From: Hoeflea sp. YIM 152468
GTDB taxonomy: Bacteria; Pseudomonadota; Alphaproteobacteria; Rhizobiales; Rhizobiaceae
DNA: 64,000 nt
Assembly: GCF_029210485.1 (NCBI RefSeq)
Contig: NZ_JARGET010000025.1
Coordinates: 1-64,000 of the forward strand
Reading direction: 5' to 3'
Shown here: one piece after another, positions 10,640 through 26,586 of the stretch
Layout: each line of letters starts with the position of its first letter
How positions within the stretch are numbered: the first letter of the stretch is position 1
The notes under the pieces: generated by a model
Databases searched by the model: none
Told to the model about the DNA's origin: nothing
Seen by the model: the letters and a program-made list of their open reading frames with translations, nothing else
Made by a program: the position numbers and the translations under genes

Positions 10640-11698
<1,059 letters not shown>

Positions 11699-11727
11699 CG
11701 CCCCCGCGCCAGCAATAGAACAGGAGG

Positions 11728-11744
11728 GCTGCCCTTGTGGCAGC
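11728..11744 (+). other. Small intercistronic hairpin
   Basis: An inverted repeat GCTGCC-cttgt-GGCAGC between kdgD and the aldehyde dehydrogenase gene. There is no T-tract. It may influence relative expression of the two genes. Confidence 0.4.
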
Positions 11745-11768
11745 GCTCGATCTTGAAAGGATTAAAGC

Positions 11769-13328
11769 ATGAGCTTTTCCCCCAAAGGCAACCTTATCGC
11801 AGGCCAATGGTGCGACGGACCGCGAACCTTCACCTCGTCTCCGGCACTTGGGTCATCATATGAATTTTCCGCCGGATCGGCCGAACTTGTGGACCGGGCC
11901 GCGCAGGCTGCCGAACAAGCCTTTCAACCCTACGCCCATTGCTCTCGCCAGCAGCGCGCGACCTTTCTCGAAGCGATTGCCGAAGAAATCGACATGCGCG
12001 GCACCGAGATCACCGCAATAGGCTCGCAAGAATCCGGCCTGCCTACCGCCCGGCTCGAAGGCGAGCGGGCGCGCACGAACGGTCAGTTGCGTCTTTTCGC
12101 CAGCTACATTCGAAAGGGCGACTATCTCGATCGTCGTCACGACGAAGCCCTGCCGGAGCGCAAGCCCCTGCCCCGACCTGATCTTCGCCTGATCCAGCGT
12201 CCAATCGGACCCATAGCCGTCTTTGGTGCCTCAAATTTCCCGCTGGCCTTCTCTGTCGGAGGTGGCGATACGGCCTCTGCGCTGGCTGCTGGCTGTCCGG
12301 TTGTCGTCAAGGGCCATGACGCCCATCCAGGCACCGGCGAGTTGGTGGCCGATGCGATTGCCGCCGCCGCCAAGCGATGCGGCATCCACCCTGGCGTCTT
12401 CAGCTACATTCATGGAGGATCACGTGACATTGGCACCACTCTGGTGCGGCATCCACTGATCAAGGCCGTGGGCTTCACAGGAAGCCTTTCCGGCGGACGG
12501 GCGCTGTTCGATCTGTGCGCCGCTCGCCCTGAACCAATCCCGTTCTTCGGCGAACTGGGCGCTGTCAATCCAATGTTCCTGCTCCCCGAAGCCACGAAAA
12601 ATCGCGGCGACGAGCTGGGGCGCGGTTGGGCTGCGTCGCTGACAATGGGCGTCGGCCAGTTTTGCACCAATCCCGGTATCGCGGTGGCGCTTCAGGACCA
12701 CGCCACCTCCGTTGCCGACGCCGCACGTCAGGCACTCTCGGGCGTTGCGCAACAGATCATGCTGACTCACGGCATCGCGCAAGCCTATCACGCGCGGGTT
12801 GATCAGATCAAAACAACCAAGGGCGTGCACGAAGTTATGTCTTCCAACAGCGAAGCGCAGAACGCCGCACCGAACCTGTTTGTTGTCTCGGGCACGGATT
12901 TCCTCGCCAATCCCGCATTGAGCGAAGAGGTTTTTGGTCCGACCGGGATCCTGGTTACAGCCAGCAACCCCGACGAGATGCTGGAGATCGCCAGAAACCT
13001 TGAAGGCCAGCTGGCCATCACATTGCATTTGGACAACGCCGACACGGAGCTGGCACGCAGGTTAATGCCGATCCTGGAGCGGAAGGCAGGCCGGGTGCTG
13101 GCGAACAATTTCCCGACAGGGGTCGAGGTCAGCGACGCGATGGTCCATGGTGGGCCCTACCCAGCTTCGACCAATTTCGGCGCCACATCCGTCGGCACAA
13201 TGGCGATCCGTCGCTTTTTACGCCCGGTCTGCTTCCAAGGCGTCCCCGAAGCACTTCTGCCGGACGATCTTCGCGGATCCGTTCATCATTGTTGCATCGG
13301 GAAGCACCGGATGATGCCGGGCGGGTGA
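11769..13328 (+). CDS. 2,5-dioxovalerate (2-oxoglutarate semialdehyde) dehydrogenase
   Basis: 519 residues of the aldehyde dehydrogenase superfamily. Catalytic residues are visible: Asn156 (GASNFPLAFS), Glu262 (FFGELGA) and Cys299 (GQFCTNPG). The GASNFPLAFSVGGGD and FGELGAVNP signatures are those of the 2-oxoglutarate semialdehyde dehydrogenases of sugar-acid pathways. It oxidises the KdgD product to 2-oxoglutarate with NAD(P)+. The ATG follows a GAAAGGA site. The last 20 or so residues (after LLPDDLR) look atypical, with GSVHHCCIGKHRMMPGG in place of the usual short tail, and degraded DNA follows, so the 3' end may have been altered by a rearrangement. Confidence 0.9.
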   Translation: MSFSPKGNLIAGQWCDGPRTFTSSPALGSSYEFSAGSAELVDRAAQAAEQAFQPYAHCSRQQRATFLEAIAEEIDMRGTEITAIGSQESGLPTARLEGERARTNGQLRLFASYIRKGDYLDRRHDEALPERKPLPRPDLRLIQRPIGPIAVFGASNFPLAFSVGGGDTASALAAGCPVVVKGHDAHPGTGELVADAIAAAAKRCGIHPGVFSYIHGGSRDIGTTLVRHPLIKAVGFTGSLSGGRALFDLCAARPEPIPFFGELGAVNPMFLLPEATKNRGDELGRGWAASLTMGVGQFCTNPGIAVALQDHATSVADAARQALSGVAQQIMLTHGIAQAYHARVDQIKTTKGVHEVMSSNSEAQNAAPNLFVVSGTDFLANPALSEEVFGPTGILVTASNPDEMLEIARNLEGQLAITLHLDNADTELARRLMPILERKAGRVLANNFPTGVEVSDAMVHGGPYPASTNFGATSVGTMAIRRFLRPVCFQGVPEALLPDDLRGSVHHCCIGKHRMMPGG

Positions 13329-13859
13329 TCGGCGGGGCCTCGGTGGCGCCAGCTTCGTCATCCGCAACGACTTGCGCTGGCGGGATCCAACCCGGCTCGA
13401 AGCATCGAGAACGGGCATGGCATGGATGTTGACGCCATCCCGGCCGCAAAGCCCCTCAATGACACCGAATACGATGCGTCCGGCAGGCCCGCACGAGACG
13501 CGGCAGAGAGCCTGGCATTCCGCCCGAATCCAATCGCAAATCCGCGATTCCGTTCGGCAAGTCGCTTTTCAAACGCCGTCAAAAATCGAGAGCATGACTG
13601 GCAAACTCAACGACTGGCCGCACACCCACACCCGCTTTGACCGGTGCGCTCACGCTTTCCATCTCAATCCTCGCACTCGCAGCAACCCCCATCTTCTGGA
13701 CCTATCGATGCGTCCTGGGCCTGATCAATCGGTGGGAGATCCGGGCCACACAGCCGTTATCCGAGCCGCAAGCGTCTGACTTCTGATCCCTGCCCAAAGC
13801 CGCGGCTTGCATCCCTTGATACTTCTCTCGGTCGCTGACAATGGCGTCGGACAATCGAA
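13329..13859. other. Degraded or non-coding stretch
   Basis: About 530 bases after the dehydrogenase gene with only broken frames. One frame near 13642-13782 reads a hydrophobic stretch (TGALTLSISILALAATPIFW) followed by a charged tail and a stop, which could be the end of a lost small membrane subunit. No intact gene is supported. Confidence 0.4.
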
Positions 13860-13893
13860 AACTGTTGACAGATTACAGGTGATGCCGATAGGC
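13860..13893 (+). promoter_or_regulatory. Predicted promoter with GntR-type operator
   Basis: A perfect -35 hexamer TTGACA (13865-13870) is embedded in the palindrome CTGTTGACAG (13862-13871). A weak -10 candidate lies near 13888. The 12-mer AACTGTTGACAG is found again, in reverse complement, over the -35 of the lyase promoter at 20906-20917. Both probably bind the GntR regulator at 14607 (inference). Confidence 0.5.
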
Positions 13894-13931: not shown

Positions 13932-14250
13932 TTGCTGGAATCGGTATCCGCGATGCTGGTCGTGGTCCCACTGTCTTTGGCCCAAGCGCAGGTCTTCGGC
14001 GTCGATCCGGGTCCTATCCGCGTCGCGGTCCTCGCCTTGATGACCGGGCTGATCGTGCCGCCCTTCGATGTGTCGATGAGGATCGCGTGCGGACTATCGG
14101 GCGGACGCGATCGCACCTTCAACAAGGCCTTGGCGCCATGCTTCCGGCACGATTGGCCGGCGCCTGCTTGTGGCTGGCAGGCCGGGCTTGTCGGCCGTGT
14201 TTTCCGGCCGCGTTTTCAACGCGCGCTGACCGTGCCACGCCGTGCAGTCT
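13932..14250 (+). pseudogene. Remnant of a TRAP large permease (DctM) C-terminus
   Basis: One frame reads SVSAMLVVVPLSLAQAQVFG, then a VDP, then GLIVPPFDVSM, which follows the conserved DctM C-terminal pattern (Val/Ile-rich helix, lG-IDP, then GLITPPVG). The match fades after about residue 60, no start is present, and the upstream two thirds of the gene are missing. It is a decayed fragment of a TRAP permease that probably once served the sugar-acid cluster or the following one. Confidence 0.55.
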
Positions 14251-14262
14251 TTGGAGATCAGA

Positions 14263-14580
14263 ATGGGCTACATCGTAAATTGGAATGACCTTCCCGAGGT
14301 GGAAATCCTGCCGAACAATATCCGCAAGTCCGCAGCCGGCCTGGAAGACCTGACCGGGCAAGTGGAGGACGGCACAGCCAAGGGTGATTGGCGCGATGCA
14401 CTGGCCCGACGGATACGCTTTGCGGACCGCATTCATGTCTCGACCGGAGGCAGCCCGTCTTATCCCGACCATCTGATCGAGCTGTTTCAGCGCAAGCGCA
14501 CAGAGACAATCTACGACCAGATTGTCCAACGACAGAGCGCGGCCTGGAAATATGCGCTATGGGAAGCTGCAGGCATTTAA
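14263..14580 (+). CDS. Small protein with cupin-like N-terminus
   Basis: 105 residues from the ATG at 14263. The first 25 residues (VNWNDLPEVEILPNNIRKS) resemble the lead-in of small cupins, but no metal-binding HxH...E...H motif follows. The remainder (ending YDQIVQRQSAAWKYALWEA) matches no family I recognise. It may be a short genuine gene, or a cupin gene that lost its reading frame. It lies 26 bases before the GntR gene in the same direction. Confidence 0.35.
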   Translation: MGYIVNWNDLPEVEILPNNIRKSAAGLEDLTGQVEDGTAKGDWRDALARRIRFADRIHVSTGGSPSYPDHLIELFQRKRTETIYDQIVQRQSAAWKYALWEAAGI

Positions 14581-14606
14581 CGGCTTTTCCCCAAGCAGGA
14601 GTTGGT

Positions 14607-15302
14607 ATGAGCTTTCTTGAACCAATCGCGGTCTCCTCGATCGCAAAAGAAGCATTCCACAAGCTGACCCAGGCAATCGTCTCGGGCGAGTTTGCGCCGG
14701 GAGAGCGGTTGTCCGAAGCCGAACTCGCCCGACGTTTCGGCATAAGCCGTGGCCCGATCCGCGAGGCGCTCGGACGGCTGGAAGGAAAGCTGGTTGTTCG
14801 CACGCCGCGCCTGGGTGTGAGCGTCATTGATCTGTCGACCGAAAAGCTTGTCGAACTGTTTGCCGTGCGGGAAGCGCTTGAAGGGATGGCGGCGCGGCTT
14901 GCAGCCGAACACATCACGGATCCGGAAATCAGGGAACTCCATATGCTGCTCGAGCAGCATGGCGGCAACCAGGATGTCGCATCGGACTCGGGCTACTATC
15001 AGGCCGGCCAGGACGACGACTTCCATTTCCGGATCGTGCGATCGGCCCGCAACGAGCAACTGGAACTGATGCTTCTGGAAGAGCTGTACTTCAAGCTCAA
15101 GCTCTACCGCTACCGCATGAGCAGCAAGCCGGGCCGGGCACAAAAGGCGCTTGAAGAGCACCGAGAAATCGTCAAGGCGATTGCCAGCCGCAATCCCGAT
15201 GACGCAGAAGCCGCGATGCGACGGCATATTCGCAATGCGATTACCGCTGCGGTCAGCCAAATGGAACGCAGCGAGAAGGAAACAAACAGGAGTCAAACAT
15301 GA
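14607..15302 (+). CDS. GntR family regulator, FCD domain
   Basis: 231 residues with an N-terminal winged helix near 15-75 (SEAELARRFGISRGPIREAL) and a C-terminal FCD domain carrying the usual His residues (DDDFHFRIV near 145, EEHREIV, MRRHIRNA). An AGGAG site stands six bases before ATG 14607; the frame stays open upstream but without a ribosome site. Its stop overlaps the start of the amidase gene (ATGA), so they are translationally coupled. Paired palindromes at 13860 and 20906 are its probable operators, which would make it the local regulator of the amidase, lyase and TRAP genes. Confidence 0.9.
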   Translation: MSFLEPIAVSSIAKEAFHKLTQAIVSGEFAPGERLSEAELARRFGISRGPIREALGRLEGKLVVRTPRLGVSVIDLSTEKLVELFAVREALEGMAARLAAEHITDPEIRELHMLLEQHGGNQDVASDSGYYQAGQDDDFHFRIVRSARNEQLELMLLEELYFKLKLYRYRMSSKPGRAQKALEEHREIVKAIASRNPDDAEAAMRRHIRNAITAAVSQMERSEKETNRSQT

Positions 15303-15991
15303 AGCCATGGGATGGAATCGTCTCGGAAGAAGAGCAGCGCGCCTACGCTGCAGCGGGTTTCGGCAAGCCGACCGGTCTCGGGAAGCGCCCCGCCTTGATC
15401 ATCATCGATGTCCAATACCGTACGGTTGGCACGAAGCCACTGCCGTTCTCGGAAGCGATCAAGGAGTTTCCGACCTCCTGCGGCCAGGTCGGCTGGGATG
15501 CCGTCGCAAACATTCAGAAGCTGCTGGAAACCTTTCGCGCCAATGATTGGCCGGTCCTGTACCCGCATGTTGCGCCCAAAGAGGGGTTCGACGCAGGACG
15601 GCTTGCCGACAAGGTGCCGGCACTTATGACGGTGAAGCGAAGCGGGTATGAATTCGTTGCCGAGCTAGCGCCGCAAGACAAGGATATCCTGCTGCCCAAG
15701 AAGCACCCGAGCGCGTTTTTTGGCACGCCGCTGGCAAGCTACCTGATTGATCTGGGAGTCGATACGCTGGTGATGACCGGATGCAGCACGTCGGGCTGCG
15801 TGCGCAGCAGTGTGGTTGACGGCTTTGCCTATAACTGGCGCATCAACGTGCCGCATGATGCTGTCTACGATCGCAGCAGGGTGTCTCATGCCGTCAATCT
15901 GTTCGACATGGGCGCCAAATATGCCGATGTGATGAGCACGGACGAAACCATCGCCGCGCTATCGCGGCTTGCCGCCGGCAAGGCTGACTGA
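15299..15991 (+). CDS. Isochorismatase-family amidohydrolase (N-carbamoylsarcosine amidase/maleamate amidase-like)
   Basis: 230 residues of the cysteine hydrolase (isochorismatase) fold with the catalytic triad visible: Asp37 (IIIDVQ), Lys134 or Lys135 (LLPKKHPSAF) and nucleophile Cys167 (STSGCVRS). The N-terminal extension and the TGCSTSGCVRSS motif are those of N-carbamoylsarcosine amidase and maleamate amidohydrolase relatives, which release ammonia (and CO2 from carbamoyl substrates). Co-expression with a GntR regulator, opposite a cyclic amidohydrolase operon, suggests it acts on the ring-opened product. The substrate is not proven. Confidence 0.85.
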   Translation: MKPWDGIVSEEEQRAYAAAGFGKPTGLGKRPALIIIDVQYRTVGTKPLPFSEAIKEFPTSCGQVGWDAVANIQKLLETFRANDWPVLYPHVAPKEGFDAGRLADKVPALMTVKRSGYEFVAELAPQDKDILLPKKHPSAFFGTPLASYLIDLGVDTLVMTGCSTSGCVRSSVVDGFAYNWRINVPHDAVYDRSRVSHAVNLFDMGAKYADVMSTDETIAALSRLAAGKAD

Positions 15992-15997
15992 CTGAGT

Positions 15998-16019
15998 TGC
16001 GGCGGGTTCTCCCGCCGCA
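15998..16019. terminator. Terminator-like hairpin between convergent genes
   Basis: A perfect nine-base stem (TGCGGCGGG against CCCGCCGCA) with a four-base loop TTCT. It lies between the amidase (plus) and SnoaL-like (minus) genes. It lacks a long T-tract on either strand. Confidence 0.55.
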
Positions 16020-16059
16020 CTCCCCGTTTCAGCCGCAATCCCGGCTTCAAATCTCCGGA

Positions 16060-16461
16060 TCAGCCAGTGCTGCGGGCAAGCAGCGCTTCCCCCATATCGT
16101 TCCACACCTGCTGTTCCGTGATCACCCCGTCGCGAATGCGGAACTGGTCGGTGAAGCGGATGCCGTCAAACGCCGTGCCATCCGCCCATTCGCCCCGGAG
16201 CGTGCCCGAGAAGATGACGACATCAATGCCGTCCCGGCCCTCGGTGGTCTGGTAGGTCCGGGCATAGGTCTTGCGCACGAACCGGTACCGCGCGGCCCCT
16301 GATGCGACCAGATCCTCGAGTTTGTTGAAGATGCGGGGGCCAGGGAATATGGCCGTGAAATCTGGTGCCAGCAGGCTGCGGGCCGTGTCCAGATCCCTGG
16401 CTTCCATTGTATCCAGATAGGTACGTGCGAGCCTGACCGGGTCAGGATTGTTCGAGCTCAT
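16060..16461 (-). CDS. SnoaL-like / NTF2-fold protein
   Basis: 133 residues with the NTF2/SnoaL pattern: an N-terminal helix (VRLARTYLDTMEARDLDTAR), a middle strand pair (FTAIFPGPRIFNKLEDL) and a C-terminal FRIRDGVITEQQVWND strand. Such proteins are small isomerases, cyclases, lyases or binding proteins, and the function cannot be fixed by sequence. It begins seven bases after the dctM stop and is the last gene of the TRAP operon, so it probably takes part in the same pathway. Confidence 0.75.
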   Translation of the reverse strand: MSSNNPDPVRLARTYLDTMEARDLDTARSLLAPDFTAIFPGPRIFNKLEDLVASGAARYRFVRKTYARTYQTTEGRDGIDVVIFSGTLRGEWADGTAFDGIRFTDQFRIRDGVITEQQVWNDMGEALLARSTG

Positions 16462-16468
16462 GGCTTCC

Positions 16469-17758
16469 TCATAATAGTTTTGGCAGGAGGGTGACGATGG
16501 AGGGGAAGACGGTCAGGATCACCAGTCCGATCAGCATCAGCACGAGGAAGGGGAAAGCGGCCGATGCGAGAAAGGGAAGCTGACGTCCCGAAATTCGCTG
16601 CAAGACAAAGAGGTTGAAGCCGATCGGCGGCGTGATCAGCCCGATCTCGACCAGGACCACCATGAACACGCCGAACCAGAGCAGGTCGAAACCCGCGCTT
16701 TGCGCGACAGGCAGAAGCACCGATCCGGTCAGCACGATCATCGACAGACCGTCCATAAAGCAGCCGAGAATGACAAGGATGAGCGCGATGACAAGCAGCA
16801 AGCCGTAATAGCCGAGCTCCACTTCCTGAATCCAGGACACCACGGTTCGCGGGATTCCGGTATAGGCCATCGCAACCTGAAGTGCAGCGGACGCGCCAAG
16901 GATCAGCCCGATTGCAGCGCAGAACAGAACCGTCGCCTTCAGCGAATCGATGATCAGCGCAGCGTTGAGCCTGTTGTCCAGGAGCGCCAGGACAAGGGCG
17001 CCGGCAACACCGATGACGGCAGCTTCGGTCGGTGTGGCATAGCCGCCATAGATCGCGCCGAAAACGAGAACAATCAGCACAAGGAGCGGCAACAGCGAAA
17101 GGACGGCGCGGCGTCTGGAGCCGCGGACATGGACAGCCGCACCTGCCGCTTGCCTGGTTCCACGATGTCGAAACGCGACATAGCCGCAAAACATTGTCGC
17201 GATCATCATGCCCGGGAGGATGCCTGCCAGAAACAGGTCGCCGATCGACACGTTGAAGGTGAATCCGTAAAGGATCAGCGCGACCGAAGGAGGGATCAGA
17301 ATGCCCAGTGTGCCGGCGCCTGCAATCGATCCCAGCACCAGTTTTTCAGGATAGTCCCGTGCCTTGAGTTGCGGCAGGCTGAGCTGGCCGATTGTCGCCA
17401 CTGTTGCGGTTGAAGAGCCGCTCAAGGCTGAAAACAGCGTGCTGGCGAAAATGTTGACCTGGATAAGACCACCCGGCATGCGCCCGACCAGCACTGCGAA
17501 GGCGTCAAACAGTTTCTGCGCCGTGCCCGACCGGGAGAGCATTTCACCCATCAGCACAAACAGTGGAAGGGCGGTCAGGCCCCAATTGGTCATCTGGCCG
17601 AAATAGGCTGTGGCCATGGCCGTGGCGGGGTCGGCATTGGCGACAAGCAAGATCCCGATTGCCGTCAGCAGCAGAATGGTGGCGGCGATCGGTATGCCCA
17701 GGAGCAGCAGGAGAAACAGCCCGACGACGAAGAAGATGGCGATAAGGTCACGATCCAT
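16469..17758 (-). CDS. dctM: TRAP transporter large permease
   Basis: 429 residues, normal DctM length, with about twelve membrane segments. The signature LSGSSTATVATIGQLSLPQL lies near residue 95, and the C-terminal ITPPIGFNLFV block near 370. It carries out sodium-coupled uptake with DctQ and DctP. The ATG at 17758 is separated by one base from the dctQ stop (TGA-C-ATG); a longer in-frame start inside dctQ is rejected. Confidence 0.92.
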   Translation of the reverse strand: MDRDLIAIFFVVGLFLLLLLGIPIAATILLLTAIGILLVANADPATAMATAYFGQMTNWGLTALPLFVLMGEMLSRSGTAQKLFDAFAVLVGRMPGGLIQVNIFASTLFSALSGSSTATVATIGQLSLPQLKARDYPEKLVLGSIAGAGTLGILIPPSVALILYGFTFNVSIGDLFLAGILPGMMIATMFCGYVAFRHRGTRQAAGAAVHVRGSRRRAVLSLLPLLVLIVLVFGAIYGGYATPTEAAVIGVAGALVLALLDNRLNAALIIDSLKATVLFCAAIGLILGASAALQVAMAYTGIPRTVVSWIQEVELGYYGLLLVIALILVILGCFMDGLSMIVLTGSVLLPVAQSAGFDLLWFGVFMVVLVEIGLITPPIGFNLFVLQRISGRQLPFLASAAFPFLVLMLIGLVILTVFPSIVTLLPKLL

Positions 17759-17759
17759 G

Positions 17760-18305
17760 TCAGTGCGCTCCGGATGGTAGGTCGCGCTCATCCAGCGCAA
17801 AGCCGGTCCCGAACATGCGCTCGAGAAAACGCAGCACCAGCGCCAGTTCAAGCATCGCAAGCCCGGCCATGACGATGCCCATCGGCAGCGCACGCGGTAT
17901 CGGCAATGTCCCCAGCATGGTGATGCCCGATTGGTAAGCCGCATACCAGATCCGTGAGAATCCCAGCAGCAGATAGCCAATGATTGCGATGGTCACGACG
18001 TAAGCCACAACCTTCAGCAGGGCGGTGGCCGACGGCTTCATTCTGTTGATGAAAAAATCGACCGAGATGTGCTGGTCGCCCGGTACGGCGGCGGCAAAGC
18101 CCAGTGCGAAGGTGCCGCCAAGCAGGATGCCGGCAATGTCATCGGCCGAGGGCACCGATATTCCGAAGAAGCGCAATCCGATCACTGCAATGAACAGTAG
18201 GACCAGCAACGCCAGCGAAAGACAGGCCAGCACCATCGAGATGCGCGCGACCCAGACCAGGATCCGGTGCATGAGGTGCGCAAGTTGAGGGTTCCGTACG
18301 TGCAT
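17760..18305 (-). CDS. dctQ: TRAP transporter small permease
   Basis: 181 residues with four membrane helices and the DctQ features: a hydrophobic first helix with VIGLRFFGISVPSADDIAG, and GDQHISVDFFINRM after helix two. It anchors the large permease and transmits binding from DctP. It sits 94 bases downstream of dctP, the gap being occupied by a perfect hairpin, and one base before dctM. Confidence 0.9.
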   Translation of the reverse strand: MHVRNPQLAHLMHRILVWVARISMVLACLSLALLVLLFIAVIGLRFFGISVPSADDIAGILLGGTFALGFAAAVPGDQHISVDFFINRMKPSATALLKVVAYVVTIAIIGYLLLGFSRIWYAAYQSGITMLGTLPIPRALPMGIVMAGLAMLELALVLRFLERMFGTGFALDERDLPSGAH

Positions 18306-18339
18306 CTAGAATGCTTCTCCGTTTTGCCGGATTGGAAGG

Positions 18340-18368
18340 TCCGTCCACGGGCGGACACCGTGGACGGA
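18340..18368 (-). terminator. Intercistronic hairpin after dctP
   Basis: A perfect eleven-base stem (TCCGTCCACGG against CCGTGGACGGA) with a seven-base loop, between dctP and dctQ and without a T-tract. It is likely a partial terminator or a stabiliser of the dctP message, giving an excess of binding protein over permease (inference from position). Confidence 0.7.
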
Positions 18369-18399
18369 TAGTCTAGCCATTAAGCCGTGTCGGCGATAC

Positions 18400-19392
18400 T
18401 CAGTTGGCGGCGGCCTTTTCGCGGAACTCGGTGATGGCGGCGCTGCCTGCATCGCCCGCCTTTGCCAGCCAGTCTGTTACCATCGCCTCGCCGACTTCCT
18501 TCAGTTCCTCGGCAAGCGTGGCGCTTGGCACAACAATGCTCATTCCGTTATCGGCAAGCACCTTTTCAGCCTCGGTCACCTTGGCTTCGCTCTGCGCCCA
18601 GCCCCAGGCCTCGACCTCTTTCGCCACGTCCTGCATCTTTTGCTGCATGTCAGCCGGAAGCGTCTGGTAGACATCCTCGCGCACGAACACCATCATTTTG
18701 GGCAGCCAGGCATCGGTCTTGTAATAGTAGTCGGTGTATTCCCAGGCCTTGTACACGACCCCGGACGTTGGGGCGGTGTTGAAGCTGGAGATCAGGCCCG
18801 TCGCGAAGGCCTGCTGCATCTCGGTGATCTGCACCGTTGTCGGCACGGCGCCCATCAGCTCGGCCAGACGCGTCGTCGACGGATTGTAGGCGCGCATCGA
18901 CAGCCCCTTCACATCGTCGAGCGAGGTGATCTCGCGATCGAAAAAGAAGCCCTGTGACGGCCATGGCACCGCATAAAGAAGGCGCACACCGCTCTTGGCC
19001 AGCTCTTCGGTCAATGGCTCGCGGGTCACGTCCCACAGCACTTTTGCATCAGCATAGGAGGTAACGAGGAACGGGATGCCGTCAAGTTCCCACAAGGGGT
19101 TCTCGCGCCCGAGATTGGTCATCAGTTCCGAACCGATCTCGACCAGACCGTTACGGGTTGATTCCAGAACCACGGGGTTGGCAAACAGCGATCCGCCATG
19201 ATGGGTGGTAATGTCCAGTTCGCCTGCGGTAACGTCCCGCATCTTGTCGGCGAACATCTGCATCGCCTGGCTCTGGAATTCGCTTGCCGGATAGGCGTTC
19301 GCGAGGTTCCAGTTGAATTCCGCAGCCTGGGCGCCGATCGCCGAGAAAGCAGTGATCGCACCCGCAGCAATTACTTTCTGCAGTAGGTTCAT
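18400..19392 (-). CDS. dctP: TRAP transporter solute-binding protein
   Basis: 330 residues with a Sec signal peptide (cleavage near IGAQAAEF, about residue 23) and the DctP fold. Near residue 170 is SMRAYNPSTTRLAELMGAVP, the usual region with the ligand-carboxylate Arg. GGAGG precedes the ATG. It binds an organic acid in the periplasm. It follows the amidohydrolase gene by 13 bases, so the amidohydrolase substrate, or an acid derived from it, is the probable ligand. Confidence 0.92.
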   Translation of the reverse strand: MNLLQKVIAAGAITAFSAIGAQAAEFNWNLANAYPASEFQSQAMQMFADKMRDVTAGELDITTHHGGSLFANPVVLESTRNGLVEIGSELMTNLGRENPLWELDGIPFLVTSYADAKVLWDVTREPLTEELAKSGVRLLYAVPWPSQGFFFDREITSLDDVKGLSMRAYNPSTTRLAELMGAVPTTVQITEMQQAFATGLISSFNTAPTSGVVYKAWEYTDYYYKTDAWLPKMMVFVREDVYQTLPADMQQKMQDVAKEVEAWGWAQSEAKVTEAEKVLADNGMSIVVPSATLAEELKEVGEAMVTDWLAKAGDAGSAAITEFREKAAAN

Positions 19393-19405
19393 ATCTTATC
19401 CTCCT

Positions 19406-20827
19406 TCATTGGTGAGTGTTTTTGATTGGATGCGGCGGCAGTCTGCGCCGCAGAAACCTGCCGGTGCCAACGGCTTCGTCCAGCAGGCGATGGTCACGCA
19501 AGGCAAACCGCCCGCGTGTCAGCGCGTGGACAACCCGGCCGCGCAGGGTCATCCCGTCGTAGAGTGAGTAGCCTGCGTCGGTGGCCCGCGTTTCCGGCCC
19601 CACGACATAATCCTCGTTCAGGTCCACGATCGCCAGATCGGCATCAAGACCGACCGCGATGCCGCCCTTGCGCTCGCCCAGACCCATGATCCGGGCCGGA
19701 TTGGCCGACGTAAGCGCGGCAATGCGTTCAAGCGGGATGCCGCGCTTGTGGTGGCCTTCGCTGACCAGCAGGGGCAGGAAGGTATCGAGCCCGGGGCAGC
19801 CCGGCGATGCGCTCCAGATCCCGCCCTGCTTCGATGCCATGGTCCGGTGCACATGATCGGTCCCGATCGTATCCACGTGACCGTCAGCGACAGCTTTCCA
19901 GAGCGCTTCCCGGTCGGCGCTTTCACGCAAGGGCGGGTTGATCTTTCCAGCCATCCCGATATCGGAATCGACGTCGTGAACCAGATAATGGCTGCAGGTC
20001 TCGATGAACACCGGACACCCGTCGCGCCGCATGGCCAGTGCGGCCTGCAGGGCCTCGGCTGACGAGGTGTGGACGCAGTAGACCGGTGTGCCGGTGACCT
20101 TGCCGAAATAGGTCGCTCTCCGTATCGCCTCTGCCTCGATGAAGGATGGTCGTGCGGCATTCCAGGTGCTCAGGCCGCCGTGCCCCTCCGGGTCGATCTC
20201 CCGCATTCTTGCGCTCAGCGCCCAGCCGATCTCGATGTTTTCCGGGTGCGGGCACATCATTCCGCCCAGTGGCCCCAGCGCTTCGAGCAGCCGGAACATG
20301 AAGCCGTCATCGATACCCGGCAGGCCCAGTCGCTTGCCTTCATCGCCACGGATGTTCATGAACAGCTTTGCCGTGGGCACACCGAGATCATTGACGTAGT
20401 GCGGCAGCGAGGCGAGCTGCGCTTCGCTCGCGATGATAAAATGATAGCTAAAGTCGATCCGCGCGCCGGCTTCGGTCACCGCTTTCATGTCGGTGAAAAA
20501 GCTTTCGTACGGATCACCGCTCATGACATAGGGAATGAAGCTGGTGACGCCGCCCAGCAGCGCTGCAGCGGTCTCGCTGGCCGCGTCCGACGGGACCCGC
20601 GGGCGCGATATGTCATTGCCGTGACCCAGGTGCAGATGAACGTCGACCCCGCCGGGGAAGACAGTCAGGCCAGTCAGGTCGATGCGTTCGTCAGCCTCGA
20701 CAGCGGCCCCGCGCTCGACGAGCCCGGCGATCTTTTCGCCATCGATGACAAGGTCCGCCTCGATCACGCCGGTGCCGGGCACGACGAGGGTTGCCCCGGT
20801 TAGATGCTTGCTAAACTTGCGTGTCAA
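19406..20827 (-). CDS. Cyclic amidohydrolase (dihydroorotase/hydantoinase/allantoinase family)
   Basis: 473 residues of the metal-dependent amidohydrolase superfamily. The first metal motif is VDVHLHLG (His64, His66), the bridging Lys is probably Lys154 (PTAKLFMN), His194 (CPHPE) and His253 (YCVHTSS) are further ligands, and the catalytic Asp is Asp324 (IGTDHVH). Enzymes of this group open cyclic amides such as hydantoins, dihydropyrimidines, allantoin or dihydroorotate. The start is taken as TTG 20827, preceded by AGGGGG; an ATG-like start at 20923 would invade the divergent promoter. It is the first gene of the operon with the TRAP transporter. Confidence 0.85.
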   Translation of the reverse strand: MTRKFSKHLTGATLVVPGTGVIEADLVIDGEKIAGLVERGAAVEADERIDLTGLTVFPGGVDVHLHLGHGNDISRPRVPSDAASETAAALLGGVTSFIPYVMSGDPYESFFTDMKAVTEAGARIDFSYHFIIASEAQLASLPHYVNDLGVPTAKLFMNIRGDEGKRLGLPGIDDGFMFRLLEALGPLGGMMCPHPENIEIGWALSARMREIDPEGHGGLSTWNAARPSFIEAEAIRRATYFGKVTGTPVYCVHTSSAEALQAALAMRRDGCPVFIETCSHYLVHDVDSDIGMAGKINPPLRESADREALWKAVADGHVDTIGTDHVHRTMASKQGGIWSASPGCPGLDTFLPLLVSEGHHKRGIPLERIAALTSANPARIMGLGERKGGIAVGLDADLAIVDLNEDYVVGPETRATDAGYSLYDGMTLRGRVVHALTRGRFALRDHRLLDEAVGTGRFLRRRLPPHPIKNTHQ

Positions 20828-20905
20828 TGGGCACCCCCTGATGTCGGTTCTGCTGCCTGGCCAGACCCTGGTCCATTGTCGTATCTGTGCATGTAATCTG
20901 GAAAC

Positions 20906-20942
20906 TGTCAACAGTTGACGCAAGGCGCGCCTCTGCTATTGT
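20906..20942 (+). promoter_or_regulatory. Lyase promoter with GntR-type operator
   Basis: The perfect inverted repeat GTCAAC-A-GTTGAC (20907-20919) overlaps a -35 hexamer TTGACG (20915-20920). A -10 candidate TATTGT lies 16 bases further (20937-20942). It lies between the divergent amidohydrolase and lyase genes, so one bound dimer could control both. Its core recurs at 13860. Confidence 0.65.
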
Positions 20943-20974
20943 GCGAAAAACCCAGACAGAAGGATGAGACGAAC

Positions 20975-21862
20975 ATGGAACAATCCGCAGGCAGGCGATT
21001 GCGAGAAATGGTTGAGGCACGCCGGGCGCTGCTGGTGCCTGGAGTGATGAATGCTCTGGCCGCACGCGTGGCTGAGGATGTCGGCTTCGAGGCGCTTTAT
21101 ATAACTGGCGCCGGCGTCACCAACGCGCACCTCGGCTTGCCGGATGTCGGGTTGATCAGCCCGACCCAGATGAGCGACACAATCGGCGTCATTCGCAATA
21201 TCACCGAGCTGCCGCTTATCGTCGACGGCGATACCGGCTTCGGCAACGCCATCAATGTCTGGCACACGGTCCGCAGTTTCGAACGCGCCGGCGCCAATGC
21301 AATCCAGATCGAGGATCAGGTATTTCCCAAGCGGTGCGGCCATTTCGAAGGCAAGGGAGTCATCCCCGGCGCGGAGATGGCGGAGAAGATCCGGGCGGCG
21401 GTCGAAGCGCGCAAGTCCGGCGATTTCCTGGTGATTGCACGGACCGACGCCTATGCCACCCATGGTCTCGACGAGGCGATGCGGCGGGCCGAGCTCTTTA
21501 TCGAGGCCGGTGCCGACATCACCTTTGTGGAGGCGCCGCGCCAGATTGACGAAATACGGCGGGTCGTGGAAACGCTGCCGGTGCCGCAACTCGTCAATAT
21601 GGTGATCGGCGGTCAGACCCCGAGCGTCGGCCTTTCGGACTTCCGGGAGTTGGGTGTCGGTCTCGTGCTATATGCCAACGCCTCGCTTCAGGGTGCGATC
21701 AAGGGCATGCATGATGCGCTGACGCATCTGCGCACTCAGGGTGCACTGACCGAAAATGATGGTCTGGTGGCAAGTTTCGCCGAGCGCCAGCGCATGGTCG
21801 GCATGGCCGACATCAAGGACATGGAGCAGCGATATGCCACCACCGAAGAAGCGGTAAAATGA
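20975..21862 (+). CDS. Isocitrate lyase/PEP mutase family lyase
   Basis: 295 residues. The ICL/PEPM signature is present as PKRCGHFEGKG with the catalytic Cys121, and the metal-binding DGDTGFGN at 84-91. Close relatives are 2-methylisocitrate lyase, 2,3-dimethylmalate lyase and oxaloacetate decarboxylase, which break C-C bonds of substituted dicarboxylic acids. The ATG at 20975 is taken over an in-frame start at 20915 that lies inside the promoter. Divergent from the amidohydrolase-TRAP operon and sharing its operator, it is a candidate for the final cleavage step of that pathway. Confidence 0.85.
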   Translation: MEQSAGRRLREMVEARRALLVPGVMNALAARVAEDVGFEALYITGAGVTNAHLGLPDVGLISPTQMSDTIGVIRNITELPLIVDGDTGFGNAINVWHTVRSFERAGANAIQIEDQVFPKRCGHFEGKGVIPGAEMAEKIRAAVEARKSGDFLVIARTDAYATHGLDEAMRRAELFIEAGADITFVEAPRQIDEIRRVVETLPVPQLVNMVIGGQTPSVGLSDFRELGVGLVLYANASLQGAIKGMHDALTHLRTQGALTENDGLVASFAERQRMVGMADIKDMEQRYATTEEAVK

Positions 21863-21877
21863 CCGCTGCACCGGCAC

Positions 21878-22969
21878 TCACGAAGGCGCGACCAGCAAAG
21901 CCGCGATGTGATTGTCCCAGGCAACATTGTGATGGCGGGAGCCGAAGCGGCCGGTTTCGCTGGAGCTGACAAATCCATCGCCACATGCCTGCACGCCGCA
22001 TGTACCAGGCTTCATCTCGACACTGCGGACTTTGCCAGTCAGGGTGTCGAGGAGAACCACGGCCCCTCTCTTTGGCGATGCAACCGCAAGGGTCGCGCCA
22101 TCCCTGCTGATGGCGACAGAGCCGGCATATTTGCCCAGGGCGATGGCGCCATCGCCGGGCAGATCGACCGGCACCAGGCCACGATCCGCACTCAATTTCG
22201 CCAGCACAGGGATCTCATCCATCACGTCTCCCTCATATTGCCCGCCTATCCAGACCTGACCTCTGCCGTCGACCGCCATGTGCCGCAATGACAGCCGGTG
22301 CAGGTTGGCTGGCAAGGCATGCGACGCGAGCAATGTTCCCGTGGCCATCTCGATGAACGCAATCGATGGTGCCATGGTGGGCAGGTTAAGCTTCTGACGG
22401 CCCTGATCGGGATGGGTTCGAATGCCGCCATTGGCGACGCACAGCGTCTTGCCATCCGGCATCAGGATAATTTCGTGCGGCCCTACGCCGTGGGAGGCGA
22501 ACTCGCCGAGACGGCTGAACCCGTCAGTGGCATCATAGAGCCCGATCACACCATCGCCGGTCTCGAACGCATTCTCTGCGGCACAGAGAATCCGGCCATC
22601 GGCCGAAAAGGCGCCGTGGCCGTAAAAGTGCCGATCCGGAGGTGTGTGGAACACGACCGGCTGGCCTGTCCGTTGACGGGGCAACGCAACCGCAAAATTG
22701 CCGGGACGACGGGCGAAAGCTACCAGCCAGTCAGCGTCCGGATGGGTGGCAAAGCCGTGGCCCCGGCTCGGCAATGCATGCGCCGAGACGATCTCCGCCT
22801 TGTCATCGAGGATGGCCATTCCATAGCCGTCTTGGGCATCCCGATAGGCTGCGGCAAACAGGATATCCGACCCGGCCAGCCTTTCAGCGGCGGCCGGTGC
22901 CAGACTGCCAAGCCAGGCGACACCGGCACCGGCCAGAAATGTCCGGCGTTCGATCAGAAGCGGTTTCAA
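21878..22969 (-). CDS. DUF1513 periplasmic beta-propeller-like protein
   Basis: 363 residues with a twin-arginine-type export signal (ERRTFLAGAGVAWLGSLAPA) and repeated blade-like segments, e.g. GHGAFSADGRILCAAENAFE and VAISRDGATLAVASPKRGAV. The family is always found with imelysin and di-haem DUF1111 genes in bacterial iron clusters, but its biochemical role is not established. It is the last gene of a five- or six-gene minus-strand run, overlapping the upstream imelysin by four bases. Confidence 0.85.
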   Translation of the reverse strand: MKPLLIERRTFLAGAGVAWLGSLAPAAAERLAGSDILFAAAYRDAQDGYGMAILDDKAEIVSAHALPSRGHGFATHPDADWLVAFARRPGNFAVALPRQRTGQPVVFHTPPDRHFYGHGAFSADGRILCAAENAFETGDGVIGLYDATDGFSRLGEFASHGVGPHEIILMPDGKTLCVANGGIRTHPDQGRQKLNLPTMAPSIAFIEMATGTLLASHALPANLHRLSLRHMAVDGRGQVWIGGQYEGDVMDEIPVLAKLSADRGLVPVDLPGDGAIALGKYAGSVAISRDGATLAVASPKRGAVVLLDTLTGKVRSVEMKPGTCGVQACGDGFVSSSETGRFGSRHHNVAWDNHIAALLVAPS

Positions 22970-24057
22970 TCGCCGTCTCCGAATGAAAAGCCGACCGCCA
23001 GGCCTCCCGCCTGCGCGAATTCCTGATCAAGACGTGCGATAATGATCTTGATGGCATAGGCGAGATAGGCCAGCTTTTCCCGGGTTTGCGGATCGGCCAG
23101 CAGCTCGGCGACCGGCGCATCGAGACTGTCGGCAGTGCGGATTGCCTGGCTGAACTCGAAACGGATCATTGCGGCAAGCTTCGGGGCCTGGTCCTCAGCC
23201 ACCACCTCGATGCCGCTGGCATTGAACAGCGCCTCCAGACCGGACAGGCCGGCGCGGATGGTCGGCAGGGTCATCTCCGAACGCCAGAACAATGCCGATT
23301 TCGGACGATCGTGATCCGGATTTTCAGTGTCGAGAAAGGCACCGATGCGGGTGTCGCGGATCGCTTCCAGGCCGTGGATCATCTGCCCCAGAAGCACATT
23401 CAGCGCTTCCGTGTCGGTTCTGTAGAGCGGATTATCCGCGCCGGGTTTGAGGAAAACCGGCACTGCAGTGCTGTCTGGCCCCCAGCCGGTGATGATCTCG
23501 TTGGACAGATTGACGAGATTGTCAGCCGCGGCATGGGCAAAAGCGCAGCGGTGACTTGCCTTCGAGTGCGCAAGCGCATCGCTGCCGCTGCCGAACAGAA
23601 GGAACTCGATGGCCCCTAGCCCCTGCATGGCGACGCTTTGACCCGCCAGGGAACCGGCGTCCGTGACGCTCGCGTCCTTTTGCGCGATGGCCGATTGCAC
23701 CTGTTTGCGGCCGGTGCCCTTGCGATCGGGGAAAAACAGCACACGCTCGAGCCGATTGTGCGACATCACCGGCCCAAGCCGCAACCATTCGATCCGCGCC
23801 CAACTGTCGGCGGCGGCGCGAAAGGCTGCACGTGCCGCACCCAGCCTGTCGCCGGATGGAGTCTCGCACAAAGCCCTGGTCGCGGTGCTTAACCCGGATA
23901 CGGACAGGTTGAACCCGGCATATCCGGGGCGGATATAGGTCACCAGCATTCGCTCAAGCACGGGTTCGATCGGCGGACGCGGGCTGGTCACATCCGCCCC
24001 AGCGGCGCCCGAACCGGCCATCAGCATCACAACGGAGAGCAGCAGACGCTTCATCAT
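22966..24057 (-). CDS. Imelysin family periplasmic protein lacking the GxHxxE histidine
   Basis: 363 residues with a Sec signal (LLLSVVMLMAGSGAAGA) and the imelysin fold (two four-helix bundles, peptidase M75 family). The site equivalent to the GxHxxE metal motif reads GLGAIEFLLFG, so the His is replaced by Gly. The paralogue at 26587 keeps it (GYHAIEFLLWG). Imelysins are iron-regulated periplasmic or outer-membrane proteins thought to take part in iron uptake. It overlaps both the DUF1111 gene and the DUF1513 gene by four bases, indicating tight coupling. Confidence 0.85.
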   Translation of the reverse strand: MMKRLLLSVVMLMAGSGAAGADVTSPRPPIEPVLERMLVTYIRPGYAGFNLSVSGLSTATRALCETPSGDRLGAARAAFRAAADSWARIEWLRLGPVMSHNRLERVLFFPDRKGTGRKQVQSAIAQKDASVTDAGSLAGQSVAMQGLGAIEFLLFGSGSDALAHSKASHRCAFAHAAADNLVNLSNEIITGWGPDSTAVPVFLKPGADNPLYRTDTEALNVLLGQMIHGLEAIRDTRIGAFLDTENPDHDRPKSALFWRSEMTLPTIRAGLSGLEALFNASGIEVVAEDQAPKLAAMIRFEFSQAIRTADSLDAPVAELLADPQTREKLAYLAYAIKIIIARLDQEFAQAGGLAVGFSFGDGD

Positions 24058-25712
24058 AGACTTTCCAGGAATTGCACCAGATTGTCGCGGTCGGCCTTTG
24101 CCAGCCCGGCAAAGCCATCGCGGGCGCGCTGTGCCTCGCCACCGTGCCAGAGGATGGCTTCGCTCAGATTGCGCGCCCGCCCGTCATGCAGGAAGAAGCT
24201 GTGCTCGTTGACGGTTTCGGTCAGGCCGATGCCCCAGAGCGGCGGCGTGCGCCATTCCTGACCGCTGGCACGCCCCACCTGCTGGCCGTCGGCCAGCCCG
24301 TCACCCATGTCGTGCAACAGAAAGTCCGAATAGGGCCAGATCAGTTGAAACCGGTGCGCCGGGGTCTCGGCCCGGCGCGAGGTGACGAATTTCGGCACAT
24401 GGCAGGTGGCACAGCCCAGAGAATAGAAGATCTGCTTGCCGGCCAGCACCGCGGCATCATCGACGGCGCGGCGCGCGGGAACGGCCAGATTCTGCGAATA
24501 GAAGGTCACCAGGTCCAGGACGGGGTCGGGCGCCTCGGTCTCGCCAAGGTTTGCCTGAGCACCGATGGGCAGGTTCATGCACGCGACCTGGCTGGGTGTG
24601 CAGTCGCCATGCCCCGCCGGGGCATCCGGCGTGGAAATGCCGATGTCGCCCGAAAACGCGCTTGCGGTTTGCTGGCGCACGCTCGCAGTCTGGGCTTTCC
24701 AGCCGAAACGGCCAATGGCAGGTTTCCCGGTGGCCGGGTCGATCGCCATTGCAACACGACCGGACACTCCATCGCCATCCTGATCGTCCGGGTCAGCGTG
24801 GGCAAGAATATCGGCGGGGTGAATGGCCTCGATCAGGCCCATGCCCGTCATCGGCGGCGTCATTCGCGGCGACAGCGTGGTTTCCGGGTCCAGCGGCCCG
24901 AACCCCAGATCGGCGACGCTGTAGGCCGGTTTGCGCAAGGACACAACCGAGCCATCGCCCAGCTCGACCGGCTGCTCCTGATACGCGATCACCATCCGGC
25001 CCTCAGCCTTGAGGCCGGGCACCGCCAGATCCTGCAATTGCCCGCCATAGACCGGGTCCGGCAGCGTGGCGACGAGGAAATCCTCGAGCGCCTGACGCTC
25101 TTCCTTGGTTCTGGCCGGGCGGGCAAGCCGCAGGAACATCGAGGTGGCGTCGGCGGCGCCTTCCGGCGGGTGCCCGCGGCCATCCTTGATGTGGCAGCTT
25201 TGGCAGGCACGGGCATTAAACAGCGGGCCGAGTCCGTCCGACGCCAGCGTCGAGGCGGGAGAGGAAACCCAGAGTTTGCGAAACAGCGCATTGCCGAGCT
25301 TGAAGGTTTCCTCCTCCTTGAAGGTCAGGTTGGTGTTGAAATGAGACAGGGAATCGCGGTTGATCAGCTTGGTCGACGTGCCGGCACCGCCCTGCATCCG
25401 CTCGAACTGTTCCGGCGCATCAAACCGTGAAGCGGGTTTAACAACGCGTTCGACCCGTTTGCGGTCTTTTGCGCTGAGATCGTCGCGGCTGGTTGGCAAT
25501 CCAGCGGCATCACCGGCCAGCGCCGCACCCTGTGACATCACGAGAGAGCCCGCCATCAGCATGCAGCGCAAACCGGCACCCCCGCCTCGCCCAGGGATAG
25601 GTAATGAAAAGTAATCCGTCATACGACGCCGCACCGGTTTAACACCAGCGGGCGTACAAAAATCGCGGTGCGGGATCACGCCTGACTCCGCCTTCAAGTT
25701 TGCAGCAACCAT
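24054..25712 (-). CDS. Di-haem oxidoreductase (DUF1111) family protein
   Basis: 552 residues with two CxxCH haem-c sites, CQSCH near residue 172 and CATCH near residue 438, and the DUF1111 features (GRGHPPEG after the first haem; HDGRARNLSEAILWHGGEA near the C-terminus). A hydrophobic export signal lies at about residues 46-68, so the true start may be the ATG at 25622; ATG 25712 has the better ribosome site (AAGAGA). Genes of this family pair with imelysins in bacterial iron loci and may change the redox state of iron in the periplasm, which is inference. Confidence 0.85.
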   Translation of the reverse strand: MVAANLKAESGVIPHRDFCTPAGVKPVRRRMTDYFSLPIPGRGGGAGLRCMLMAGSLVMSQGAALAGDAAGLPTSRDDLSAKDRKRVERVVKPASRFDAPEQFERMQGGAGTSTKLINRDSLSHFNTNLTFKEEETFKLGNALFRKLWVSSPASTLASDGLGPLFNARACQSCHIKDGRGHPPEGAADATSMFLRLARPARTKEERQALEDFLVATLPDPVYGGQLQDLAVPGLKAEGRMVIAYQEQPVELGDGSVVSLRKPAYSVADLGFGPLDPETTLSPRMTPPMTGMGLIEAIHPADILAHADPDDQDGDGVSGRVAMAIDPATGKPAIGRFGWKAQTASVRQQTASAFSGDIGISTPDAPAGHGDCTPSQVACMNLPIGAQANLGETEAPDPVLDLVTFYSQNLAVPARRAVDDAAVLAGKQIFYSLGCATCHVPKFVTSRRAETPAHRFQLIWPYSDFLLHDMGDGLADGQQVGRASGQEWRTPPLWGIGLTETVNEHSFFLHDGRARNLSEAILWHGGEAQRARDGFAGLAKADRDNLVQFLESL

Positions 25713-25729
25713 TACTGTCTCTTGCGTGT

Positions 25730-26212: not shown

Positions 26213-26258
26213 GATTTTCCTTGTCCCTGCGGTGATCAATGCCCTGCATATAACACCA

Positions 26259-26576: not shown

Positions 26577-26586
26577 GGTCTTGCCC

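Follow-up and report, generated by a model that had tools for sequence, protein, structure and literature searches.

The window considered here is a 64,000-nucleotide stretch of the Hoeflea sp. YIM 152468 genome (contig NZ_JARGET010000025.1, positions 1 to 64,000), and at 14607–21862 it holds eight intact genes that may form a catabolic unit for a cyclic imide or a close cyclic amide. Each of the eight has a clear family match, as judged from open reading frame lists, translations and Pfam/NCBIfam scans, and the genes named in the original prediction of a cyclic-amide pathway (TRAP importer, amidohydrolase, amidase, lyase, SnoaL protein and GntR regulator) are all present. The start given there, 14263, falls in a deletion remnant that is no pathway gene; the unit proper begins at 14607. 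A leftward run on the minus strand opens with a hydantoinase/dihydroorotase-type amidohydrolase, the proposed ring-opening imidase (IMID, 19406–20827, with a proposed TTG start), and continues through the TRAP solute-binding protein DctP (18400–19392), the small permease DctQ (17760–18305) and the large permease DctM (16469–17758) to a SnoaL_2 protein of the SnoaL/NTF2 fold, a probable isomerase or accessory factor (16060–16461), ending at 16060. Divergent from IMID and read rightward on the plus strand is a PEP_mutase/ICL-family protein, a C-C lyase of the PrpB/petal-death-protein type (ICL, 20975–21862). Also rightward are a GntR/FCD-family transcriptional regulator (14607–15302; FCD 98 bits, GntR 57.8 bits) and an isochorismatase-fold amidase, the proposed half-amidase (ISOCH, 15299–15991; Isochorismatase domain 103 bits), which meets the SnoaL gene tail to tail. 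The nearest relatives of the unit were found in Mesorhizobium sp. J18 (locus L036) and in a metagenome-assembled genome named Rhodobacteraceae bacterium UBA6213 (L037), to which the GntR protein is 80% and 78% identical, respectively.

A perfect palindrome, GTCAACAGTTGAC (20907–20919), which has no other perfect match in the 64 kb, lies between the divergent IMID and ICL genes and is a putative GntR operator. It is kept at the same place as GTCAACTGTTGAC in L036 and L037, so that the palindrome GTCAACNGTTGAC stands between IMID and ICL in all three genomes. It was found in 8 of 249 loci: L036, L037, L049 and L056, together with L001, L002, L024 and L120, which are copies of the window or L036 regions. 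A weak second copy, GAAAACTGTTGAC, with two mismatches (13857–13869, plus strand), lies ahead of the remnant, GntR and amidase genes, and in L036 a related site, GCTGTTGACAG, lies ahead of a cupin gene; none was seen in the stretch of L037 that was read. Sites with up to two mismatches number two in the 64 kb, with 2.0 expected by chance, and were dropped as operator evidence. Of the single GntR operator proposed originally, the site at 20907–20919 is therefore solid through its conservation, and the copy at 13857–13869 is no rarer than chance.

The binuclear metal site of cyclic amidohydrolases consists of four histidines, one lysine and one aspartate, according to excerpts of PMC9863593. The IMID ligands (H65, H67, K155, H195, H254 and D325 in the numbering of P0007) are invariant in 14 aligned sequences, and IMID conforms to the metal-site rule of D-hydantoinase/dihydropyrimidinase. 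Among the NCBIfam matches listed (25 of 56), its named models include D-hydantoinase (256 bits), dihydropyrimidinase (241 bits) and allantoinase (237 bits); the first of these scores, against TIGR02033 (D-hydantoinase/dihydropyrimidinase), is under the curated cut-off of 393. No imidase-named model appears among the Pfam and NCBIfam matches listed; imidase is an accepted activity of this hydantoinase-fold family in the same excerpts (PMC9863593). The hydantoin-5-propionate pathway was considered and rejected, as IMID reaches 199 bits with ErtD (NF058538), for which the cut-off is 600. At the substrate-loop positions taken from those excerpts (PMC9863593), both loops of IMID are unlike the ones of aligned D-hydantoinases. 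Loop I reads DISRPR, with two arginines, in the window and in 9 of the 13 other aligned relatives; loop II is seven residues longer than in the D-hydantoinases and has Ile in place of their Tyr. This position is Ile, Asn or Phe in 12 of the 14 aligned IMID sequences, with Tyr retained in the aconitase-type loci L022 and L023.

The best solved relatives of ISOCH are 3ot4/3uao (99.9 bits), the maleamate amidohydrolase NicF, as which 3uao is identified in excerpts of PMC5806882, and 26st (99.1 bits), an N-carbamoylsarcosine amidohydrolase. The Asp-Lys-Cys triad that these excerpts assign to metal-free isochorismatase-fold amidases (PMC5806882) is present as D37, K134 and C167, lysine and cysteine being placed by alignment and D37 by motif. 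The closest relatives of ICL (P0008) are petal death protein and methylisocitrate lyase; it scores 273 bits against PrpB (TIGR02317), below the cut-off of 354.4. C-C lyases of the ICL/PEP-mutase superfamily carry the motif K-[KR]-C-G-H with the catalytic Cys, which is found in ICL as KRCGH at 119–123; K119, C121, G122 and H123 are invariant in 10 sequences.

Relatives of IMID were gathered from the window's family (at E up to 1e-80, in 13 genomes out of 199, its own genome counted), on plasmids (10 records; nine regions were read, one of these nine, L019, without annotation) and on genome contigs (80 loci kept of 576 confirmed). The tally covers 73 loci; it leaves aside two duplicates, L024, which repeats the region of L036, and L078, which shares its contig with L032, as well as 27 of the 80 contig loci (L087–L089 and L092–L115), which are mostly archaeal and 28–35% identical. 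Partners were labelled at no less than 38% identity over 60% of the reference, a threshold that distant partners escape, such as the L036 SnoaL protein (56% coverage), as do genes past the fetched flanks. ISOCH was found at 58 of the 73 loci, ICL at 39 and both at 39, followed by FAD dehydrogenase (32), GntR (30), MmgE/PrpD (25), AcnA (12) and SnoaL/NTF2 (11). Without the loci that supplied the references (n=62), the counts are 48 for ISOCH, 30 for ICL, 30 for both, 29 for FAD dehydrogenase, 23 for GntR, 22 for PrpD, 10 for AcnA and 8 for SnoaL/NTF2. None of ISOCH, ICL, FAD dehydrogenase, PrpD, AcnA or GntR was detected in any of 20 control loci, which are chosen regions around other hydantoinase-family genes of the same bacterial family, about half of them true D-hydantoinases and the rest lower-scoring members; four were shortened by contig ends. 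One control (L170) encodes a protein 40% identical to an IMID reference and another (L169) carries an aldehyde dehydrogenase label.

Pairwise distances are correlated at 0.885 for IMID and ICL and 0.845 for ISOCH and ICL (39 loci each) and at 0.715 for IMID and ISOCH (58 loci), the observed values being inflated by related rows; the largest correlation among 500 label permutations is 0.16. The IMID-ISOCH-ICL unit plainly travels together, with a near-identical layout in the window, L036 and L037; Methylobacterium nodulans ORS 2060 is a laboratory strain that carries the full unit. The importers vary among relatives (TRAP, LIV-type ABC or tricarboxylate transporter), as might be expected if importer, hydrolase, amidase and lyase were accidental neighbours acting on unrelated compounds. 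Such an explanation is extremely improbable and was rejected on the strength of the 20 control regions, where amidase and lyase are absent as against 58 and 39 of the 73 loci; the correlated divergence of the three proteins and the layout kept in three genomes also speak against it. A different, F420-linked context was seen on plasmid 3 of Variovorax sp. PBL-E5 (L018), where an IMID relative (41%) adjoins genes for F420 biosynthesis, for an LLM oxidoreductase and for a carbon-nitrogen hydrolase.

All three TRAP subunits exceed their Pfam cut-offs (DctM 307 bits; DctQ 59 bits, cut-off 28.3; DctP 115.7 bits), and DctM reaches 355.7 bits with TIGR00786 (cut-off 268.45). The closest solved relatives of DctP are 2pfy (249 bits, E 6e-73) and 2pfz (243 bits, E 6e-71), followed by 6wgm (215 bits) and then by a match of 68 bits. 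These first two are DctP6/DctP7 of Bordetella pertussis, whose crystals contained pyroglutamate, a carboxylate-bearing cyclic amide, as described in excerpts of PMC5812351 and PMC3454389. The latter also ascribes a carboxylate-binding role to a conserved Arg (PMC3454389), which the window DctP retains as R167 within an aligned RAY motif. By its closest relatives and this Arg, the window DctP fits the pyroglutamate-binding subfamily. A survey of DctP relatives identified 61 places in 240 genomes of the class, from which 20 regions were taken; a HyuA-type protein is encoded in seven of them and directly beside the TRAP genes in six, one being in the own genome. Three of the seven HyuA-type neighbours were scanned and matched caprolactamase alpha, below the cut-off. 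In L076, a DctP 47% identical to that of the window is encoded near IMID and ISOCH. A second DctP of the same subfamily (35%) is found beside a 1221-aa HyuA-containing protein on contig C22 of the own genome (L201).

TcuA/flavocytochrome-c flavoproteins, AcnA, MmgE/PrpD, LeuCD and PrpB belong to families known for tricarboxylates or substituted malates. PrpD (25 loci) and AcnA (12 loci) co-occur at none of the 73 loci (hypergeometric 0.004, or 0.008 on 62), which is consistent with their being alternative hydratases. In L026, TcuA (685 bits, cut-off 369) is encoded beside the unit together with a 355-aa protein that is TcuB-like by eye and has no Pfam match; in L015, the linked flavoprotein, of the flavocytochrome-c type, reaches 146 bits, under the same cut-off. 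AcnA, as a linked partner, scores above its own cut-off. On the IMID tree (a quick tree with SH-aLRT only and no bootstrap), the window, L036 and L037 form a clade within a group of 25, where PrpD accompanies 13 of the 22 others. Neither PrpD nor the flavoprotein is encoded nearby in these three genomes, so hydration would have to take place elsewhere, or the substrate may be already hydroxylated. A possible source of the missing hydratase is contig C14 of the own genome, where four MmgE/PrpD genes lie within 20 kb (L122 and L123); they are only 23–31% identical to the linked ones and stand in another context. Around them are SDR genes, a gene resembling isopropylmalate dehydrogenase, and genes for AbrB-like and tricarboxylate-transporter proteins, which makes this a further uncharacterised region of acid catabolism. 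An isopropylmalate-dehydrogenase-like gene beside the lyase in L027 was set aside as leuB by curated score (445.6 bits, cut-off 353.2), its position being probably coincidental.

The only close solved relatives of the SnoaL protein, 9mua/9mup, are the SnoaL half of a 4-oxalocrotonate tautomerase (4OT)-SnoaL fusion. To 9mua the window protein (model pLDDT 89.8) has 48% identity, with Z 20.6 and a root-mean-square deviation of 1.4 over 128 residues; an open-access literature search on 9MUA returned nothing relevant. SnoaL relatives were found in 33 of 297 genomes searched, and 17 regions were examined, in 12 of which the SnoaL frame has a 4OT-looking N-terminal extension (11 by pattern, L235 by eye). 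The tautomerase-SnoaL frame of L236 matches no NCBIfam family, its 4OT half being recognised by pattern and eye only. A LeuC-like hydratase is labelled in 13 of the 17 regions (24–30% identity over 43% of AcnA), and the NCBIfam scan confirmed LeuC for the hydratase of L236 and LeuD in L242. HyuA occurs in four regions, and ICL in eight, in several of which it is truncated where the region stops; the IMID-type L249 adds a further case. HyuA, ICL, FAD dehydrogenase and the LeuC-like protein are found together in L235, L236, L242 and L245 (in the last, the FAD dehydrogenase is a piece at the region end). Among HyuB/HyuA clusters with a SnoaL frame, the tautomerase-like extension is seen in L235, L236 and L242, and the L236 cluster also includes an isochorismatase-family amidase. 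The cluster shared by these four loci is apparently another ring-opening counterpart of the window pathway, and two distinct ring-opening systems, IMID and HyuA/HyuB, seem to have their back end in common.

What was observed directly is the gene content, the conservation of catalytic residues and of linkage, the correlated divergence and the recurrence of partner enzymes; from sequence we infer every reaction, the reaction order and the substrate class. With moderate confidence, we assign the unit to the GntR-controlled catabolism of a cyclic imide (or close cyclic amide) with a free carboxylate. Besides linkage, correlated divergence and the partner families, this reading draws on the kinship of ISOCH to NicF, the nearness of DctP to pyroglutamate binders, the HyuA-type proteins in 7 of 20 regions around DctP relatives, the imidase activity accepted for the IMID family and the HyuA/HyuB clusters with their similar partners. 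The TRAP importer would take up the carboxylated cyclic imide, IMID would open the imide ring to yield a half-amide, and ISOCH would free ammonia from it, so that a substituted maleate or succinate remains. Water would then be added by a hydratase, whose gene accompanies the unit in many relatives but does not lie in this window, to form a substituted malate, which ICL would split into a 2-oxoacid (pyruvate if the carbinol bears a methyl group) and a carboxylic acid; the SnoaL protein probably shifts the double bond or accelerates tautomerisation. Because the back-end families handle tricarboxylates or substituted malates, the compound entering these steps would best be a substituted succinate or maleate with a third carboxylate. 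An imide that bears an acidic side chain would lead to such a tricarboxylate; a hydantoin, whose chemistry suits the later steps less well, would not readily do so.

The sequence of import, ring opening, deamidation and C-C cleavage put forward in the original prediction is thus still the best reading, and linkage and correlated divergence bear out its genes as one conserved unit. It overlooked the FAD dehydrogenase and hydratase (PrpD, AcnA or LeuC-like) step of the relatives, the reduced state of the window copy and the kinship of SnoaL to the 4OT-SnoaL fusion. Its alternative of deamidation or decarbamoylation suits the sequence of ISOCH either way, since this is as close to N-carbamoylsarcosine amidohydrolase as to NicF; it is the back end that speaks for deamidation, with an imide half-amide as the compound acted on. 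The cluster is undescribed as far as open-access literature searches reach: no description was found in them, most subscription journals being outside the search.

In a ureide route, IMID would open a carboxylated hydantoin or dihydropyrimidine, ISOCH would remove the carbamoyl group as CO2 and ammonia to leave an amino acid, and the lyase would act on a derived acid. The nearest named models of IMID among the matches listed (D-hydantoinase, dihydropyrimidinase and allantoinase at 256, 241 and 237 bits) and the double kinship of ISOCH agree with this route, which we nevertheless consider unlikely. No conserved deaminating step accompanies the unit, a class III aminotransferase label being seen at three mapped loci (L030, L073 and L085) besides the reference L023 (other classes were not searched for), and partners of the PrpD, AcnA, TcuA-like and PrpB-like types do not follow from an amino acid. 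The Ile, Asn or Phe of 12 of the 14 IMID sequences at the Tyr position of D-hydantoinases also argues against it, though L022 and L023 keep the Tyr. Less probable still is a six-ring variant, in which 2,6-dioxopiperidine-4-carboxylate from isonicotinate or citrazinate would be opened and deamidated to tricarballylate, from which a TcuA-like enzyme would form cis-aconitate, a route that reportedly operates in Mycobacterium INA1. The TcuA of L026, above its cut-off (685 against 369 bits) and with the TcuB-like protein beside it, would suit this variant, as would AcnA and the tricarboxylate-transporter proteins of other loci; a PrpB-type lyase would be superfluous for isocitrate, and no molybdenum hydroxylase was seen among the annotated neighbours (most unlabelled open reading frames are without annotation).

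Several observations weigh against the cyclic-imide proposal itself. IMID (25 of 56 matches), ISOCH and ICL stay under the cut-off of every NCBIfam model among the matches listed, and ISOCH matches N-carbamoylsarcosine amidohydrolase as well as NicF (99.1 against 99.9 bits). The HyuA-type proteins encoded next to other DctPs point to lactams no less than to imides. The mutual exclusion of PrpD and AcnA needs just two changes on the IMID tree and so does not represent 12 independent cases. Neither hydratase lies in the fetched flanks of 27 of the 58 ISOCH loci, nor in 14 of the 39 loci with both ISOCH and ICL (9 of 30 without reference loci). Hydratase and flavoprotein genes are both absent from the window; in the own genome no close FAD dehydrogenase was found, and the PrpD relatives there are just 23–31% identical; the unlinked hydration step is the model's weakest point for the window itself.

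The deletion remnant (14263–14580, plus strand) comprises 105 codons, in which cupin residues 1–27 continue in frame with the C-terminal end (about 65 residues) of an MBL-fold hydrolase, followed by 13 unmatched residues; it is 62% identical to MBL residues 208–283 and has no Pfam match. In L036 and L037 both genes are intact, coding for a cupin of 117 aa and an MBL protein of 284 and 285 aa, and they lie 5' of the GntR and ISOCH genes. Since cupin and/or MBL homologues (42–54% identity) also lie near the core in five actinobacterial loci (L055, L057, L058, L061 and L063), the two were probably once members of the unit, and the deletion that left this scar removed most of two conserved genes. 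A NamA/XenA-group ene-reductase is encoded directly 3' of ICL in L036 and L037, with relatives in L054 and L055; none lies beside ICL in the window. Comparison of the 64 kb with the references for PrpD, AcnA, FAD dehydrogenase, ene-reductase, cupin and intact MBL showed no homologue elsewhere at 30% identity and 50% coverage. Displaced members elsewhere in the own genome were sought and rejected: the best ene-reductase match (45%) is inside a 776-aa frame, the MBL search gave only the window remnant and one weak match (30% over 88 residues), and FAD dehydrogenase gave short pieces only. The window copy is reduced: no hydratase or flavoprotein is linked to it, and it has lost the cupin, MBL and ene-reductase genes that L036 and L037 carry. 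These same losses (cupin and MBL fused away, no ene-reductase beside ICL, an unlinked hydratase) would fit a decaying copy that has lost a working pathway. We find this doubtful, as the eight remaining frames are open at full length, the checked catalytic residues and the operator are retained, and identity to L036 and L037 is 76–83% for IMID, DctP, ISOCH, ICL and GntR (DctM 75–83%, DctQ 59–65%, SnoaL 45–55%).

As a candidate substrate for the cyclic-imide pathway, hematinic acid would fit the chemistry. It is a chlorophyll degradation product in leaves, and yearly chlorophyll turnover is on the 10^12 kg scale, according to excerpts of PMC7318184. Imidase and half-amidase would convert it to a homologue of 2-methylaconitate longer by one carbon, or to the saturated form of this, which the TcuA-like flavoprotein would oxidise again; hydration of the product by PrpD, AcnA or LeuCD would follow, and the PrpB-like lyase would yield pyruvate and glutarate. 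It is a speculative and rather improbable extension of this scheme that the conserved module supplies the route, so far missing, by which bacteria degrade imides of the hematinic acid type, the maleimides or succinimides with methyl and carboxyethyl groups that remain after chlorophyll and heme breakdown.

Parts of the proposed pathway have counterparts in known systems. The cyclic-imide pathway of Blastobacter sp. A17p-4, with an imidase and a half-amidase, likewise proceeds by hydantoinase-family ring opening through a half-amide to a dicarboxylate; unlike the window type, it ends in simple dicarboxylates, and lyase, hydratase and TRAP importer are not known to be part of the unit. Nicotinate fermentation in Eubacterium barkeri also includes an amidohydrolase-type ring opening, a LeuCD-type dimethylmaleate hydratase and an ICL-type 2,3-dimethylmalate lyase, but employs enamidase and B12 mutase steps and is not known to use an isochorismatase-fold amidase, whereas the window has no linked hydratase. 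The eight cluster proteins include neither 2-methyleneglutarate mutase nor dimethylmaleate hydratase, the search for the mutase covering the cluster alone. The 2-methylcitrate cycle (PrpD or AcnD, and PrpB) similarly uses a hydratase and an ICL-family lyase to obtain pyruvate from a methyl-bearing tricarboxylate; it lacks nitrogen steps, and the window ICL scores 273 bits against a PrpB cut-off of 354. Tricarballylate use by TcuA/TcuB relies on a TcuA/flavocytochrome-c flavoprotein of the kind linked in relatives of the window unit but not in the window itself. In the aerobic nicotinate route, maleate is isomerised and is not known to be cleaved by a lyase. Its maleamate branch, in the excerpts of PMC5806882, has the isochorismatase-fold NicF hydrolysing a maleic half-amide, as proposed for ISOCH; that half-amide comes from 2,5-dihydroxypyridine via NicX and NicD and not from an imide.

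The unit is flanked on the left (9935–13328) by genes for a GntR regulator, a DHDPS-family protein and an aldehyde dehydrogenase, which by family likely belong to a sugar-acid (glucarate-type) pathway. An open frame at 13932–14285 has a DctM-like stretch by eye and no Pfam match and is possibly a remnant of another TRAP gene. On the right (21878–26663) lies an iron-handling group of DUF1513, imelysin, di-haem oxidoreductase, ferritin-like and BFD-like genes.

The IMID-ISOCH-ICL core is found in Alphaproteobacteria, Betaproteobacteria and as far away as Actinobacteria, while importers and hydratases are exchanged around it. This recurrence and the similar back end of a second ring-opening system suggest that some cyclic amide or imide common in the environment is broken down by a seemingly undescribed route. 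If the substrate is a tetrapyrrole-derived maleimide, the unit would explain at the enzyme level how nitrogen and carbon are recovered in the last stage of chlorophyll and heme decay. In any case, it offers testable predicted enzymes: an imidase, a half-amidase and a substituted-malate lyase.

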